Assembly (NCBI GenBank): GCA_903879705.1
Contig: CAIRMO010000103.1
Coordinates: 1 to 48,433, forward strand
Source of the DNA: an uncultured Candidatus Competibacteraceae bacterium
Lineage (GTDB): Bacteria > Pseudomonadota > Gammaproteobacteria > Competibacterales > Competibacteraceae
Length of the DNA: 48,433 nt
Reading direction: 5' to 3'
In this document: piece by piece, positions 7,132 through 41,517 of the stretch
Layout: every line of letters starts with the position of its first letter
Position numbering within the stretch: the first letter of the stretch is position 1
Position numbers and translations under genes: made by a program
Notes under the pieces: model-generated
What the model saw: the letters and a program-made list of their open reading frames with translations, nothing else
The model's database searches: none
Told to the model about the DNA's origin: nothing

Positions 7132-7168
7132 GGCGTTTTCCTGAAATGAAGGTATAGGTTTCCTGAAC

Positions 7169-7287
7169 GAGTTGTGGTCGCATCCGGCAGAAAAATCCCC
7201 CCTGACCCCATTTTGCAAAGGGGGGAAGCTGCGTTAGCAGCGGGGGGATTTTTCCCTTTTCCACAACGTGAACCGGATGGCTCTATA
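7169..7287. repeat. MITE-like repeat family 2, divergent copy
   Basis: The element starts GAGTTGTGG and ends CCACAAC followed by the family-specific tail AACCGGATGGCTCTATA. The interior differs from the other copies: AAAAATCCCCCCTGACCCC and its near-complement GGGGGGATTTTTCCC form long arms. The same C-rich/G-rich motif occurs inside the coding sequence near 38244. Confidence 0.6.
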
Positions 7288-24608: not shown

Positions 24609-24798
24609 GAGTTGTGGAATTGCCGCTTCGAACCACCCCGGCGCTTCGCGCCACCCCTCCTTATCCAAGGAGGGGATAAAACCAGCACGGTACATCGCTT
24701 TTTCCCCTCCTTGGATAAGGAGGGGTGGCCCCGTCAGGGGCCGGGGTGGTTCGCTCCTCAGCGAGGGGAAATTCCATAACTCCAACCGGATGGCTATA
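24609..24798. repeat. MITE-like repeat family 2, full copy A
   Basis: About 190 bp with inverted ends: GAGTTGTGGAATT at the left and AATTCCATAACTC at the right, followed by CAACCGGATGGCTATA. Both arms also carry inverted GAACCACCCCGGC and CCCCTCCTTATCCAAGGAGG modules, so the element can fold into one long hairpin. It accounts for most of the non-coding DNA between gabD and the exporter operon (24554-24880). Confidence 0.75.
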
Positions 24799-29429: not shown

Positions 29430-29619
29430 GAGTTGTAGAATTGCCGCTTCGAACCACCCCGGCGCTTCGCGCCACCTCTCCTTATCCAAGGAGGGGATAA
29501 AACCAGCACGGTACATCGCTTTTTCCCCTCCTTGAGTAAGGAGGGGCGGCCCCGTCAGGGGCCGGGGTGGTTCGCTCCTCAGCGAGGGGAAATTCCACAA
29601 CTCCAACCGGATGGCTATA
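29430..29619. repeat. MITE-like repeat family 2, full copy B
   Basis: About 190 bp and nearly identical to the copy at 24609-24798, including the preceding GGAATCCGACCT and the tail CAACCGGATGGCTATA. Ends are GAGTTGTAGAATT and AATTCCACAACTC. The few differences between copies (for example GAGTAAGG for GGATAAGG in the right arm) imply recent spread. Confidence 0.75.
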
Positions 29620-34352: not shown

Positions 34353-34420
34353 ACGTTTGCGGTGGCAATCGGTCCAGCAATGGGTTGAGCCGCCACAGGA
34401 ATAACGCAAGAGACCCTGTG

Positions 34421-35545
34421 ATGAATAACGAACCGCGTGAAAAACTCCGTGAATCGATCGTTGAATATGGTCGTTCTCTTTGCGATGACCCGCGCCGGTG
34501 TGAGGCATTGCTCAAGGATTACTGCGGGCAATATAAGCGGGAAATTTTTGTCTTGATCAGTGCCCTGAAAAACCGAGTGGCGGATGATTTGCTGAAGACT
34601 TCGGCGGGTGTACCACAAATCCTGTTATTGGCACGATTGATCAAGCGATTGGAGGATGAATTGGCGATGACTGCCGAAGCGGCACAATGGGGGGTGGAGT
34701 CGTGGGCATTGGCGCTGGGTGTGATTGATCAACCGATGCCGGTGATTAAACCGGCTCCCACGCCGCTGACTCCGTCCGCCGTACCCTCCCCCATATCAGT
34801 GGCCTCGTTGGTGCATCCGGTTTTAGCGCCCTTATCGGTTTTCCGTGACCGGTTACGCGACGGCAGCAATGGCCCCGTGATGATTGCGATTCCAGCGGGT
34901 GAGTTCTGGATGGGATCACCGGAGAATGAAGCGGACCGGAGCGGCGATGAACGCCGGCATCGGGTCAAGATTGAACGGCCTTTTGCTATCGGCCAATACG
35001 CGGTGACTTTTGATGAGTATGACCGTTTTTGTGCCGACAGGGGTAGAACTAAACCCGAAGATCAAAGTTGGGGTCGCGGCAACCGGCCAGTCATTAACGT
35101 CGATTGGTTGAATGCACTGGATTACACCGAGTGGCTATTGGCGCAGACCGGGCAAAACTATCGATTGCTTACGGAAACGGAATGGGAATACGCGGCGCGA
35201 GCGGGAACGGAAACCGCATTCTGGTGGGGCAATGATATTAGCCCGGATCAAGCAAATTACGAGTTCAATCGTATGAAAACAGTCCCGGTCGATCGATTTC
35301 AACCGAATCCGTGGGGATTATATCAAGTGCATGGCAACGTCTGGGAATGGACGGGTTCACAATATGGCGTAAAGTATAGCGGGGCAGAAATGCTGTGTAT
35401 TAATAAAAACACAAGCAGCACGTTGTCGGTTCGGGGTGGCGCTTGGAACAACAGATCCGTGGGAGTCCGTTCCGCTAGCCGCTTCGGGAACAATCCTGCT
35501 GAACGCATCAGTAACCGGGGGTTTCGTCTCGCCCGATCATTATAG
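34421..35545 (+). CDS. Module-FGE paralogue 1: N-terminal helical module fused to FGE-sulfatase-like domain
   Basis: A 374-residue protein. Residues 1-104 (MNNEPREKLRESIVEYGRSL, DDPRRCEALLKDYCGQYKR, LLARLIKRLEDELAMT) form a helical module repeated in three neighbours. A Pro-rich linker (about 105-140) leads to a formylglycine-generating-enzyme-type (C-type-lectin-like) domain with MIAIPAGEFWMGSPENEADR, YAVTFDEYDRFC, YRLLTETEWEYAARAGTETAFWWG, NPWGLYQVHGNVWEWTGS and a final GFRLARSL. The paired active-site cysteines of true FGE are absent: the end is RGF-RLAR, not GFRC, and RSAS-R replaces the Cys region. So catalysis is unlikely and ligand binding more probable. The last ~25 residues before GFRLAR differ sharply from paralogue 2. 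The start at 34421 aligns with the other copies. It is followed by the kinase gene. Confidence 0.85.
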   Translation: MNNEPREKLRESIVEYGRSLCDDPRRCEALLKDYCGQYKREIFVLISALKNRVADDLLKTSAGVPQILLLARLIKRLEDELAMTAEAAQWGVESWALALGVIDQPMPVIKPAPTPLTPSAVPSPISVASLVHPVLAPLSVFRDRLRDGSNGPVMIAIPAGEFWMGSPENEADRSGDERRHRVKIERPFAIGQYAVTFDEYDRFCADRGRTKPEDQSWGRGNRPVINVDWLNALDYTEWLLAQTGQNYRLLTETEWEYAARAGTETAFWWGNDISPDQANYEFNRMKTVPVDRFQPNPWGLYQVHGNVWEWTGSQYGVKYSGAEMLCINKNTSSTLSVRGGAWNNRSVGVRSASRFGNNPAERISNRGFRLARSL

Positions 35546-37136: not shown

Positions 37137-37517
37137 CTAGCGGTAGGCTTCAAAATCACGCTCATCAGTCGATAAAATACGCCCATGCCCAAGATGCTCG
37201 GCTAAAATCACCAGCGAAGCGTCAGCTAAGTCCATCGGCAAGTTGGCGTATTTTTTCATTAAGGCAATGATGCGTGGAACATGCGATGGAGTTAAATCAA
37301 ACAGGCTAAAAGCACCAGCTATGTAATTGCTTAAAAAGAGTTGTTGCGCTTGGACGCCAATCCGCGCCCCCAATAAATAACAGGTCTCAGTCACGACCGG
37401 CCAAGTTGTGACGAGCGGTTCAGGAGACAGTTCGGTTAAGCGAATGCTGGCGATGTCATGGTATTTATCTTTGCTATTAGCCAAGGCTAACCAGAATCCG
37501 GTATCAGCGATCACCAT
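37137..37517 (-). CDS. PIN-domain ribonuclease toxin (VapC-like)
   Basis: A 126-residue PIN-fold protein. It starts MVIADTGFWLALANSKDKYH with the first catalytic Asp, has the conserved Glu in WPVVTETCYLLGARIG, and the later acidic residues in MDLADASLVILAEHLG and ILSTDERDFEAYR. PIN toxins cleave specific RNAs with Mg2+. The ATG overlaps the end of the antitoxin gene by 14 bp, so the pair is translationally coupled. The pair points leftward toward the kinase gene and is divergent from paralogue 2. Confidence 0.88.
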   Translation of the reverse strand: MVIADTGFWLALANSKDKYHDIASIRLTELSPEPLVTTWPVVTETCYLLGARIGVQAQQLFLSNYIAGAFSLFDLTPSHVPRIIALMKKYANLPMDLADASLVILAEHLGHGRILSTDERDFEAYR

Positions 37518-37764
37518 GTTTTTTTTCCAGCAATTGAATTAGTTCAGATTTATAGGTGGTCGATAATTCCGGGGAGGCTTCACCACAACCAATAAAACCC
37601 GATTGGGTGAGAATATCAGCGGTACTGGGATGTTCGGAATTTACTCTGGAATAATAAAAATCAATTGCTTGCCGGATCACTTCGCTGATATTGGCATGAG
37701 TGGTTTCTGCAAGGTAACGTAACTTTTGCAGACGCTGATCGTCCAGTTGAGTTTGGACACGCAT
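37504..37764 (-). CDS. Ribbon-helix-helix antitoxin of the PIN pair
   Basis: An 86-residue protein from the ATG at 37764, preceded by GAGG at 9 bp. Residues 1-45 (MRVQTQLDDQRLQKLRYLAE, ISEVIRQAIDFYYSRV) fit a CopG/RHH DNA-binding fold: a short beta strand followed by two helices with the SEVIRQA motif. The tail (about 50-86) would wrap and block the toxin. The longer open frame upstream to 37824 is not supported. It probably represses its own promoter in the 108-bp gap before paralogue 2. Confidence 0.82.
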   Translation of the reverse strand: MRVQTQLDDQRLQKLRYLAETTHANISEVIRQAIDFYYSRVNSEHPSTADILTQSGFIGCGEASPELSTTYKSELIQLLEKKHGDR

Positions 37765-37872
37765 GATTGTTTGCCTCTTTATCCATAAAAAGGGTAGAAT
37801 AGTTTTTTTGGTACTGAATATCAATAGAATTTATAAATAATTCGATCTTGTTGTGAAATTTAAGGAATCCCT

Positions 37873-39042
37873 GTGAACAACGAACCTCGTGAAAAACTCC
37901 GTGAATTGATCGTCGAATATGGCCGCACGCTGTGCGATGACCCGCGCCGATGCGAGGCATTGCTCAAGGATTACTGTGGGCAATACAAGCGGGAGATTTT
38001 CGTCCTGATCACCGCCCTGAAAAGCCGAGTGGCCGATGATTTGCTGAAAACCTCGGCGGGTGTGCCGCACGTCCTGTTATTGGCGAGACTGATTAAGCGG
38101 TTGGAGGATGAATTAGCCATGACCGCCGAGGTGGCACAGTGGGCGGTTGAGTCGTGGACATTGGCACTAGGTGTGATCGATCAACCGATGCCGGTCATTA
38201 AACCGGCTCCTGCGCCGCCACCTCCGTCCGTTGCTATTCTGTTCCCTCCTTTGAAAAAGGGGGGTCAGGGGGGATTTTTGGGTGCGGGGGGATTTTCGTC
38301 GGTATTCCGCGACCAGTTGCGCGATGGTAGTCCCGGCCCCACGATGATTGCGATTCCAGCGGGTGAATTCTGGATGGGATCGCTGGAGAGCGAGGCCGGA
38401 CGGGATGACAATGAACGCAGGCACCGGATCAAGATTGAACAGCCTTTTACTATCGGCCAATATGCGGTGACTTTTGAGGAGTACGACCGTTTTTGCGTCG
38501 ACGGGGATAGAACAAAACCCGGAGATCAAAGTTGGGGCCGTGGCAATCGACCCGTGATTAACGTCAGTTGGCTTGATGCGTTGGACTACACTGAATGGCT
38601 GTCGGCGCAGACTAGGCAAAACTATCGGCTACCTACAGAAGCGGAATGGGAATATGCAGCACGAGCGGGAACGGAAACCGCGTTCTGGTGGGGCAATGAT
38701 ATTAGCTCGGATCAGGCGAATTACCACGGGAATTACACTTATCGTGAGGGACCTAAGGGTGTGTATCGTAAAAAAACAGTCCCGGTCGATCACTTTCAAC
38801 CGAATCCGTGGGGATTATATCAAGTGCATGGTAATATCTGGGAATGGACTGGCTCCCAGTATGACGAAAATTATAGCGGGGCAGAAATGCTATGCGCTAA
38901 TAAAGATACGGGCAACCGTTTGTCGGCGCGGGGCGGCTCTTGGTTCGACGTTCCCGCGTGGGTGCGTTCGGCCCTTCGTAGCAGGCTTAATCCTGCGTAC
39001 CGTGACTACTACCGGGGATTTCGTCTTGCCAGATCATTATAA
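37873..39042 (+). CDS. Module-FGE paralogue 2, with repeat-derived linker
   Basis: A 389-residue protein starting at GTG 37873, with AAGGA 6 bp upstream. Its N-terminal module (1-104) is almost identical to those of paralogues 1 and 3. The linker contains FPPLKKGGQGGFLGAGGF, encoded by an in-frame genomic repeat (38244-38296). The FGE-like domain follows (MIAIPAGEFWMGSLESEAGR, YRLPTEAEWEYAARAG, NPWGLYQVHGNIWEWTGS, YYRGFRLARSL). The catalytic cysteine pair of genuine FGE is missing. Compared with paralogue 1 the backbone is nearly the same, but the segment after RGGSW up to GFRLAR is strongly diverged (FDVPAW versus NNRSVG; LRSRL versus SRFGN; YRDYY versus ERISN). This one retains a Tyr/Trp-rich surface, as expected for a ligand-binding face. 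Confidence 0.85.
   Translation: MNNEPREKLRELIVEYGRTLCDDPRRCEALLKDYCGQYKREIFVLITALKSRVADDLLKTSAGVPHVLLLARLIKRLEDELAMTAEVAQWAVESWTLALGVIDQPMPVIKPAPAPPPPSVAILFPPLKKGGQGGFLGAGGFSSVFRDQLRDGSPGPTMIAIPAGEFWMGSLESEAGRDDNERRHRIKIEQPFTIGQYAVTFEEYDRFCVDGDRTKPGDQSWGRGNRPVINVSWLDALDYTEWLSAQTRQNYRLPTEAEWEYAARAGTETAFWWGNDISSDQANYHGNYTYREGPKGVYRKKTVPVDHFQPNPWGLYQVHGNIWEWTGSQYDENYSGAEMLCANKDTGNRLSARGGSWFDVPAWVRSALRSRLNPAYRDYYRGFRLARSL
38244..38296. repeat. Genomic repeat segment embedded in frame in a coding sequence
   Basis: CCCTCCTTTGAAAAAGGGGGGTC.. and the following GGGGGGATTTTT/GGGGGGATTTT repeat the C-rich/G-rich arms of the family 2 variant at 7169-7287. Here they encode PPLKKGGQGGF-LGAGGF in the linker of paralogue 2, without breaking the frame. 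Paralogues 1 and 4 lack it. Confidence 0.7.
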
Positions 39043-39101
39043 CAATTTGTTTTTTATCCTTTTACCCTTTATCGCTTGAGCAGCGGAGTGATTCACAGGA
39101 T

Positions 39102-39181
39102 CGAACCACCCCGGCGCTTCGCGCCACCCCTCCTTATCCAAGGAGGGGAAAAAGTCACCACTTAAGCCGGATCGCTCTATA
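39102..39181. repeat. Truncated MITE-like repeat family 2 copy
   Basis: TCGAACCACCCCGGCGCTTCG and the CCTCCTTATCCAAGGAGG hairpin match the left part of the full copies. The segment then jumps to a variant of the right tail (AGCCGGATCGCTCTATA). The middle and the GAGTTGTGG end are missing. It lies between paralogues 2 and 3. Confidence 0.65.
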
Positions 39182-39217
39182 TTCACCCGAACTCTTCTCG
39201 ATTGACCGAAAATGCCC

Positions 39218-40162
39218 ATGCACAACGAACCTTGTGAAAAACTCCGTGAATTGATCGTCGAATATGGCCGCTCGCTGTGCGATGACCCGCGCCGATGCGA
39301 GGCATTGCTCAAGGATTATTGCGGGCAATACAAGCGGGAGATTTTTGTCTTGATCACCGCCCTGAGAAACCGAGTGGCCGAGGATTTGCTGAAGACCTCG
39401 GCGGGTGTGCCGCATGTCCTGTTATTGGCGCGACTGATTAAGCGGTTGGAGGATGAATTAGCCATGACCGCTGAGGCGGCACAGTGGGCGGTCGAGTCGT
39501 GGACATTGGCGTTAAGGGTTGTGAGCGCGGACATAGAGGCAAGGGAAATCTTAAAAATTAAAGGGATTGATTGCACAGTAGATGTTTTTTTAGAAAAAGC
39601 GAAAGAAGGGAATACTGAAGTAGTAAAGTGGTTAATAGCCGCTGGGATAGATATCAACTCAGCAGATAATAACAGCAACACTGCGCTCGGATGGGCATTA
39701 TATAAAGGCCACACGGAAACCGTGCAAGCCTTGTTGGCGCATGGGGCTAAGATTAATGATGGCAAAACCGCTGCTTTCATGCGAGCATCATTGAACGGCT
39801 ATGCGAAAATCGTGCAAGTCTTGCTGACGCATGGAGCCAAGATTGAGGCAAGAGATGGTAGCGGCCTGACTGCTCTCATGTGGGCGTCATATAAAGGCCA
39901 TACGGAAACCGTGCAAGTCTTGTTAGCGCATGGGGCCGATATTGAGGCAAAAGATTATGATGGCTGGACTGCTCTTATTAGTGCATCACTGACCGGTCAT
40001 ACAGAAACCGTTCTAGCCTTGTTGGCGCATGGGGCCAATATTGAGGCAGAAGATTGTGACGGCTGGACTGCTCTTATTAGTGCATCAATGAACGGTCATA
40101 CGGAAACCGTTCTAGCCTTGTTGGCGCATGGTGCCAGCGGTTCCCGGCGTCCTGATTTATAA
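39218..40162 (+). CDS. Module-ankyrin paralogue 3: N-terminal helical module fused to ankyrin repeats
   Basis: A 314-residue protein. Residues 1-100 are the same module as in the FGE-like paralogues (LRELIVEYGRSLCDDPRRCE, VAEDLLKTSAGVPHVLLLAR, WAVESWTLAL). The identity stops abruptly after WTLAL, and the rest is an ankyrin array of about six units of 33 residues, for example DGWTALISASLTGHTETVLA followed by LLAHGANIEAED. The DNA of neighbouring units is very similar, so the array grew by recent tandem duplication. The junction marks a domain swap: one sensor domain exchanged for another behind a common module. The reading frame ends in SGSRRPDL, out of register with the repeats, and decayed repeat DNA continues beyond it, so the protein is probably shortened. 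The ATG at 39218 aligns with the other copies; one at 39212 is also possible. Confidence 0.82.
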   Translation: MHNEPCEKLRELIVEYGRSLCDDPRRCEALLKDYCGQYKREIFVLITALRNRVAEDLLKTSAGVPHVLLLARLIKRLEDELAMTAEAAQWAVESWTLALRVVSADIEAREILKIKGIDCTVDVFLEKAKEGNTEVVKWLIAAGIDINSADNNSNTALGWALYKGHTETVQALLAHGAKINDGKTAAFMRASLNGYAKIVQVLLTHGAKIEARDGSGLTALMWASYKGHTETVQVLLAHGADIEAKDYDGWTALISASLTGHTETVLALLAHGANIEAEDCDGWTALISASMNGHTETVLALLAHGASGSRRPDL

Positions 40163-40401: not shown

Positions 40402-41517
40402 ATGAATAACCTACCGCGTGAAAAACTCCGGGAATTGATCGTCCAATACGGTCGCTCGCTGTGCAATGACCCGCGCCGCTGTAAAGCCTTGCTGAAGGAC
40501 TATTGCGGGCAATACAAGCGCGAGATTTTCGCCTTGGTCAGCGCCCAGGACAATCGAGTGGCCGAAGAACTGCTGAAAGCATCCGCCGGAGTCCCGCAGT
40601 CCATCGTGCTAACGCGACTGAGCAAACGACTGGAAGATCAATTAGGCTTCACCAAGGAATTAGCCCACTGGGCCGTCGAATCCTGGGCACTGGCGCTGGA
40701 CGTGATCGATCAACCCTTGCCCGCCATGCCGCCCGCCGCCGCGCCGCCGCCCGTATTTCTGACCGCCTTGCAAGTTTTCCGCGACCGGTTGCTCGACGGC
40801 AGCGACGGTCCCGCCATAATCGTCATTCCAGCGGGCATCTTCTGGATGGGATCGCCGAAAAACCAGCCCGAACGGGATGACAATGAACGCCGTCACCGGG
40901 TGACAATTCCCCAGCCATTCGCCGTGGGTCAATATCCTGTCACCTTTGACGACTATGACCGGTTTTGCGCCGCCACCGGGCGGGACAAACCCAATGACGA
41001 AGGCTGGGGACGAGAGCGGCGGCCAGTGATTCACGTTGATGGGTTTGCCGCGGTGGCCTATACCCAGTGGCTTTCCCAGCAGACCGGCCAGACTTATCGT
41101 CTGCCGACCGAAGCCGAATGGGAATACACCGCACGCGCAGGCGCTCGAACCGCGTTTGGGTGGGGAAATCGCATCACGCCGGACCAGGCCAATTACGACA
41201 GCCGTCAGGTTTATGCCAGCGAGGGTCAGTCCGGCATTCCCCGGCAACAAACGACGCCAGTCGGCACTTTCCCGCCCAACCCGTGGGGGTTATACGACAC
41301 CGTGGGCAATGTCTTTGAGTGGACTGGTTCCTTGTATGCGGCTGATTACCACGAAGCGGAGCGGAGTGGTTCTGTCAAAGACCCCACCAGTGTCCGAGTC
41401 GTGCGGGGTGGTTCGTGGTTCTACGGCCCGGCGAAAGCGCGTTCCGCCTACCGTAATCGCCGCCAACCATTTTATCACGATCACAATCTGGGGTTCCGTC
41501 TCGCCCGATTATTTTAA
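40402..41517 (+). CDS. Module-FGE paralogue 4
   Basis: A 371-residue member with the same architecture: module (MNNLPREKLRELIVQYGRSL, NDPRRCKALLKDYCGQYKRE; about 1-104), a short Ala/Pro linker, and an FGE-like domain (IIVIPAGIFWMGSPKNQPER, YRLPTEAEWEYTARAG, NPWGLYDTVGNVFEWTGSLY, RGGSWFYGPAKARSAYRNRR, LGFRLARLF). It is more diverged and more GC-rich than copies 1-3, so it is probably the older copy. The FGE active-site cysteines are again absent. The 3' variable stretch (about residues 340-363) is rich in Tyr, Arg and His. Only 17 bp separate it from the antitoxin gene, followed closely by the toxin, vWA and PP2C genes, suggesting one transcript. Confidence 0.85.
   Translation: MNNLPREKLRELIVQYGRSLCNDPRRCKALLKDYCGQYKREIFALVSAQDNRVAEELLKASAGVPQSIVLTRLSKRLEDQLGFTKELAHWAVESWALALDVIDQPLPAMPPAAAPPPVFLTALQVFRDRLLDGSDGPAIIVIPAGIFWMGSPKNQPERDDNERRHRVTIPQPFAVGQYPVTFDDYDRFCAATGRDKPNDEGWGRERRPVIHVDGFAAVAYTQWLSQQTGQTYRLPTEAEWEYTARAGARTAFGWGNRITPDQANYDSRQVYASEGQSGIPRQQTTPVGTFPPNPWGLYDTVGNVFEWTGSLYAADYHEAERSGSVKDPTSVRVVRGGSWFYGPAKARSAYRNRRQPFYHDHNLGFRLARLF

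Follow-up and report, generated by a model that had tools for sequence, protein, structure and literature searches.

The peptide linker of an FGE-like protein in a Competibacteraceae genome is encoded by a copy of a palindromic repeat that is found throughout that genome, a conclusion supported at the level of nucleotide sequence. The gene lies in a window of 48,433 nt, the whole stretch of DNA that was analysed. The most probable explanation, to which we give a likelihood of roughly 85%, is that the repeat is a protein-coding palindromic element, that insertions of it which keep the frame survive in linkers and loops able to tolerate them, and that this linker holds a captured copy. It rests on direct observations of repeat identity, dispersal, in-frame position, empty sites in relatives and restricted use of reading frames, and other proteins are affected in the same way. 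The features of the window to which the text refers are as follows.

37873..39042, + strand: FGE-like paralogue (paralogue 2), 389 aa, with N-terminal module, linker and FGE-sulfatase domain
38242..38297, + strand: shortened copy of the palindromic element, its in-frame translation being FPPLKKGGQGGFLGAGGFS within the 389-aa frame
38256..38277, + strand: element core AAAGGGGGGTCAGGGGGGATTT, found by pattern match (contig C103 of the own genome, G000)
7190..7253, no strand: intergenic copy with the whole palindromic core, in which AAAAATCCCCCC / GGGGGGATTTTT form the outer arms around two hairpins
7153..7287, no strand: longer MITE-like shell around the 7190-7253 core, TATAGGTTTCCTGAACGAGTTGTGG ... 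CCACAACGTGAACCGGATGGCTCTATA, found in other copies of the genus
34385..35545, + strand: paralogue 1, 78-80% identical, probable start ATG 34421, linker without the repeat
40402..41517, + strand: paralogue 4, 61-62% identical, its short linker lacking the repeat
39212..40162, + strand: N-terminal module (89% identical) and ankyrin repeats, repeat copy absent

The repeat in the linker and in the window

A Pfam scan of the 389-aa protein placed the FGE-sulfatase domain (PF03781) at residues 156-387 and gave no match to the N-terminal module. The sequence-only reading had proposed that arms of an intergenic repeat are translated in the linker between these two parts after a frame-preserving insertion, and this is borne out: 38242-38297 is read as FPPLKKGGQGGFLGAGGFS within the open frame, and 38242-38279 is identical at 37/38 nt to a copy on contig C57 (L005) that lies outside every ORF of at least 80 aa. 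The copy in the linker is truncated, the outer arm AAATCCCCCC being absent on its 5' side, and GGGGGGATTTT occurs in it twice with a spacing of 18 nt. Allowing one mismatch or fewer, GGGGGGATTTTT has 4 matches in the window against 0.45 expected (7191 on the minus strand; 7242, 38268 and 38286 on the plus strand), which are confined to these two repeat places, and the hairpin arm CCCTCCTTTGAAAAAGGGGGG, with up to three mismatches, has one match against 0.00 expected. That a low-complexity Gly/Pro linker merely resembles the repeat by chance is a very remote prospect; linkers in this protein group are indeed Pro-rich and variable, but the 37/38 nucleotide identity to an intergenic copy already refutes such a coincidence, and against it stand also the expectation of 0.00 for the arm in the window and the absence of any match in the genome controls.

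In the complete element the outer arms AAATCCCCCC/GGGGGGATTT enclose two hairpins, an inner one (CCCCCCTTT/AAAGGGGGG) and a second that is small. The 7190-7253 copy has a mutated arm in its inner hairpin, retains the small second hairpin, and is predicted to fold into a three-way junction (-36.4 kcal/mol); the same fold is predicted for an in-gene copy within a DNA-methylase gene (-46.6). The shell was aligned over nine copies, one of which (L004) has no left part. The terminal inverted repeats of this long form are imperfect (TATAGG...GTTGTGG / CCACAAC...CTATA), and a terminal TA is present. Inside the core, as delimited by the search pattern, there is no GTAG or CGTC tag of the kind that marks the foot of REP palindromes. 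A comparison of the long form with plasmid records gave no match. A further family of palindromic repeats (ACCACCCCGGCGCTTCGCGCCACCCCTCCTTATCCAAGGAGGGGA or close to it) is present at 24640-24730, 29461-29550 and 39100-39160; at the first two places it has an inverted relative some 60-75 bases off, and the words flanking them there (GAGTTGTGG, GAGTTGTAG) are similar to the shell of the KGG element.

Alignment of the linkers of paralogues 1 and 4 showed them to be Pro-rich and to have no KGG-type peptide, as the sequence-only reading had stated. The distance between the KPAP and VFRD motifs is 26 residues in paralogue 1 and 30 in the protein with the repeat, which indicates that, instead of being cleanly added, the repeat took the place of a portion of a variable Pro-rich linker or overwrote it. 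The proposal that a mobile repeat created new linker sequence thus holds for the peptide, which is repeat-derived, but not for the linker as such, which pre-existed in the paralogues. A recent insertion, as had also been proposed, is consistent with the near-identity to another copy but is not dated directly: the 40 genomes searched, own included, yielded no orthologue of the full protein from the same genus, and the age of the insertion can therefore be inferred only from that near-identity (37/38).

Some match to the FGE protein was found in 35 of these 40 genomes. The near-full-length homologues, in G024 (67%) and G008 (54%), have no such peptide, and it is likewise absent from FGE-domain frames of G004 (contig C242), G017, G019 and G005; linkers were inspected in these named frames, a minority of the many FGE matches. 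No orthologues were found that conserve the peptide without having the repeat family. Among the frames inspected, one other FGE gene, on contig C365 of G004, has a similar peptide, SPPLAKGGKGGF, shortly before its domain; the peptide derives from an exact copy of the repeat's core, and its frame is interrupted by stop codons in the assembly. Either, therefore, the linker received two insertions, or one of them is older than it appears. In another FGE-type gene (L098, G022) an inverted pair of the element lies upstream of the domain.

One tryptic peptide predicted across the insert is GGQGGFLGAGGFSSVFR. An AlphaFold2 model built from the protein and six relatives was poor (mean pLDDT 43.5, pTM 0.33) and carries no weight here; residues 111-150 were among those of lowest pLDDT, and 99-144 had neither helix nor strand. 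A 30-residue query gave no match among solved structures.

Other features of this locus may be recorded here. The N-terminal module, of about 100 aa and with no Pfam match, is common to three FGE-domain proteins and one ankyrin protein (37873-38180, 34421-34730, 39221-39529 and 40402-40710), and a further copy, 51% identical, lies elsewhere in the genome (G000:C126:31962-32366). Directly before the linker gene, on the minus strand at 37137-37824, is a gene pair for PIN-domain and ribbon-helix-helix proteins, likely a toxin-antitoxin pair. The C-terminal segment of the FGE domain (38925-39042) differs strongly between paralogues at scattered positions, a pattern similar to that of the targets of diversity-generating retroelements. 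A genome search for a template of such a retroelement returned two other places (75%, both within FGE matches) and a 26-base match (E 0.37), and the candidate was rejected.

Dispersal of the element and its reading frames

The own genome is a draft of 148 contigs, and the core AAAGGGGGNNNNGGGGGGATTT, with one mismatch or fewer, occurs in it at 15 places as against none in the backward control, while the hairpin CCCCTTTN(1-4)AAAGGGG occurs at 18 places and in none of the controls. The exact core was present in 15 of the 40 genomes of the relatives search and in 23 of 39 from the taxonomic family, but in only 3 of 398 drawn from the phylum, the own genome being included in each count. Draft genomes of the family that carry it span 2.6-4.7 Mb, and many copies are present in G445 (46), G018 (26) and G435 (22). 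Sometimes the element is found as inverted pairs. Named records of other groups gave ten stretches with a strict 35-base pattern, which speak for the spread of the motif only and stand outside the copy counts: three in 'Deltaproteobacteria' and one each in Poribacteria, Geomonas, Methylococcaceae, Gallionellaceae, Desulfobacterales, Desulfobacteraceae and Desulfobulbaceae. The motif is thus not private to the Competibacteraceae. A 1021-aa frame at locus L182 (G018) contains several tandem units of the element (SSSPSFEKGGQGGISSSPPFDKGGQGGIS...), as though the element had expanded into a coding minisatellite.

For the assignment of copies to genes, codon usage was modelled on 173 long frames of the loci, including a few that did not belong to the family. 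A copy was called in-gene if a single frame ran open across it and each flank scored >10, excluding the 30 bases beside the core; this open-frame test replaced an earlier classification by 240-bp flank scores, which had confused neighbouring genes with frameshifts and had missed the linker copy. Across the family, 53 of 172 distinct core copies are in genes by this codon-usage test, at 28 non-homologous sites; the total excludes the seven copies of the distant genome G040, the one of G320, both sets lying outside genes by the codon model trained on other genomes, and the single copy of G034. A first set of 84 distinct copies was made up of 15 from the own genome (one mismatch or fewer) and all 69 exact copies from other genomes of the relatives search, G034 excluded. 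In it 28 copies are in genes (7 of the 15 own and 21 of the 69 others), and these reduce to 18 sites when grouped by homology of the flanking protein. A second, separately fetched set of 88 distinct copies, from 102 core places in nine further family genomes, has 25 in genes, of which 11 are at sites already known and 14 define 10 new ones.

When translated, the element reads KIPPxPPFxKGG...GG(F/I) in one orientation and PP(L/F)xKGGxGG(F/I) in the other, and is rich in Pro, Gly and Lys. All 18 sites of the first set read PP..PP..KGG or KGG.GG, that is, 17 labelled as KGG and L022, which stops short after IPPDPPF in the same frame as the KGG sites; all 10 new sites of the second set are also in KGG-type frames. 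The counting of in-gene against other copies that the sequence-only reading had in view therefore comes to 53/172, with PP/KGG-type frames at 28/28 sites. The SPL..QRG and RGVRGD frames are used at none of the 28, though open in 69 and 37 of the 84 first-set copies respectively. If frames were used according to their openness, these two would be expected in about 28% of cases, and the probability of the observed absence is 0.003 for the first set (0/18), where the test was post hoc, 0.038 for the second (0/10), which taken alone is weak, and about 1e-4 overall (0/28). A hairpin-only copy beside bioA (L201), which is outside the tested sets, has marginal in-gene scores of 12 and 15 in the QRG frame, on the strand opposite bioA. 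As to the other hairpin-only copies of the own genome, that of SucB is in a gene and in a KGG-type frame, and L067, L069, L199, L200 and L004 are not in genes.

Empty sites and the position of inserts in proteins

Two conserved proteins show the site both with and without the element. The dihydrolipoyl succinyltransferase SucB has lipoyl, E3-binding and catalytic domains by Pfam, and in the own genome IPPASPPPFDKGEQGGFAGGQGGF lies between the E3-binding and catalytic domains; the same-genus G002 has IPPASPPPFDKGGQGG at the same place, and the site is empty in the same-genus G001 and G003 and in all 14 others among the 18 aligned sequences. In valyl-tRNA synthetase (ValS), KIPPNPPLxKGG or close variants occur at one position in G010, G014, G022 and G003, and at that position G018 has the element twice in tandem; in the alignment of 21 sequences, 5 carry the element and 14 have an empty site. 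The own ValS (L204, G000:C55) carries LTPSPLEGKGWGEG in the loop where these five relatives have the KGG element, and that of G013 has a further short insert there. The DNA of the LTPSPLEGKGWGEG insert forms an inverted repeat of another sequence (fold -22.4). It was considered as a candidate second dispersed repeat, but no other copy is present among 319 loci, and its arm is absent from the window. The C-terminal tail of FtsB reads KIPPGPPLLKGD, with a diverged counterpart in G001 and none in G002 and G003; this copy was not called in-gene because little coding sequence lies downstream of it.

These sites bear on two further alternatives. It might be supposed that the gene linker was the source and that the intergenic copies derive from it, which may hold for how the element first arose; as an account of the present copies it is highly improbable, since the SucB and ValS sites are empty in relatives and the linker copy is truncated where the intergenic 7190-7253 copy is complete. 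An assembly artefact at repeats could be suspected in a draft genome of 148 contigs, yet same-site insertions occur in separate genomes, five for ValS and two for SucB, and the likelihood of such an artefact is close to nil.

Pfam scans of 21 copy-bearing proteins left three without a match, most target genes belonging to recognisable families. In the 18 matched proteins, 15 of 19 insert sites fall outside the matches, as against 9.4 expected (P 0.004); this test used open-frame counts with positions entered by hand, and took in FtsB and L018 though neither was called in-gene. The four sites within a match, against 9.6 expected, are in the N-domain of a glycogen-debranching enzyme, a topoisomerase, an NRPS condensation domain and the ValS anticodon domain. 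Among the inserts outside domains, that of the polyketide synthase L195 lies between acyl-carrier and ketosynthase, that of L198 between methyltransferase and carrier, and that of the Cas3-like protein L019 upstream of the helicase domain; restriction genes also contain in-gene copies.

A different view would be that the repeat is kept for a function, such as an mRNA hairpin, a G-rich pause site, or a selected flexible linker that tunes the coupling of the N-terminal module to the FGE domain. The exclusive use of PP/KGG-type frames, the strong folds predicted for two complete copies, and the elements lying just before the domain in the G004 FGE gene and, as an inverted pair, upstream of the FGE-like domain of L098 would fit with this. 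However, presence is patchy among same-genus genomes for SucB and ValS, the target genes are unrelated, and the frame of the G004 copy has stop codons, all of which looks like tolerance rather than need, and we regard retention for a function as unlikely.

Origin, known relatives and significance of the element

Under the reading preferred here, that of a coding palindrome captured in tolerant linkers and loops, a non-autonomous element would be spread by a putative enzyme, its copies arriving in a transposition-like manner and inserting widely as the whole or as a half of about 35 bases. In the genus of the window it is found also within the longer MITE-like shell that starts with TATAGG and ends with CTATA. 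Insertions that break a frame or a folded protein core would be lost, and those in linkers and loops would be kept and translated, the protein being made with the segment; purifying selection is the presumed cause of the bias in frame and position. The frame restriction itself could reflect selection for a soluble Pro/Gly/Lys segment or a preference in insertion, and in the FGE-like protein of the window the element has replaced part of an existing variable linker. More speculatively, and on balance doubtful, sequence and insertion could be tuned to yield a single Pro/Gly/Lys-rich 'portable linker', harmless or even useful once translated, and a recurrent source of domain spacers in the family and perhaps across phyla, the latter extension being suggested by finds of the DNA motif in records from Poribacteria, deltaproteobacteria, Gallionellaceae and Methylococcaceae. 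The ValS loop would then be one that repeatedly takes inserts; five genomes have the KGG element in it, and the own genome has another inverted repeat.

REP and BIME sequences are small, palindromic and dispersed, and sometimes form inverted pairs. The element resembles them in all of these respects and differs in that about a third of its copies are in genes. With MITEs it shares a long intergenic form with imperfect terminal repeats starting TATAG, whereas the displayed in-gene copies consist of the inner palindrome without the shell. According to PMC2229807, the Correia/NEMIS, ERIC/RU-1, RU-2 and RU-3 repeats are non-autonomous MITEs, some of which have open frames fused in frame to genes. 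As described there and in PMC4224334, palindromic repeats that lie in frame within genes have been recorded in Rickettsia (RPE), Wolbachia (WPE), Neisseria and enterobacteria, and the RPE and WPE are short, dispersed palindromes, both intergenic and fused in frame within unrelated and even conserved protein genes. The element is like the RPE and WPE in being palindromic, dispersed, multi-copy and in frame within unrelated conserved genes. Its likeness to the RPE is one of behaviour, and it may be regarded as an analogue; the host group is different, and its length in genes is about 35-65 bp as against the 105-146 bp given for the RPE in PMC2229807. Restricted frame use is a feature seen in the present element. 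Among the openly licensed papers listed for its own DNA and peptide strings, none has a title or opening of an abstract that concerns such a repeat, although a description may exist elsewhere, and the element is therefore taken as new and its kind as known.

Rickettsia and Wolbachia are the best-known hosts of coding palindromes, and genome decay is a common explanation there. The same behaviour is seen here in genomes whose draft assemblies measure 2.6-4.7 Mb, and genes that contain a copy include SucB, ValS, polyketide and restriction genes. For annotation this carries a warning, as protein segments of the KGGxGGF type may be repeat insertions and not domains. Since presence and absence differ between close relatives, the question of whether the element provides a usable linker is directly testable in this family.
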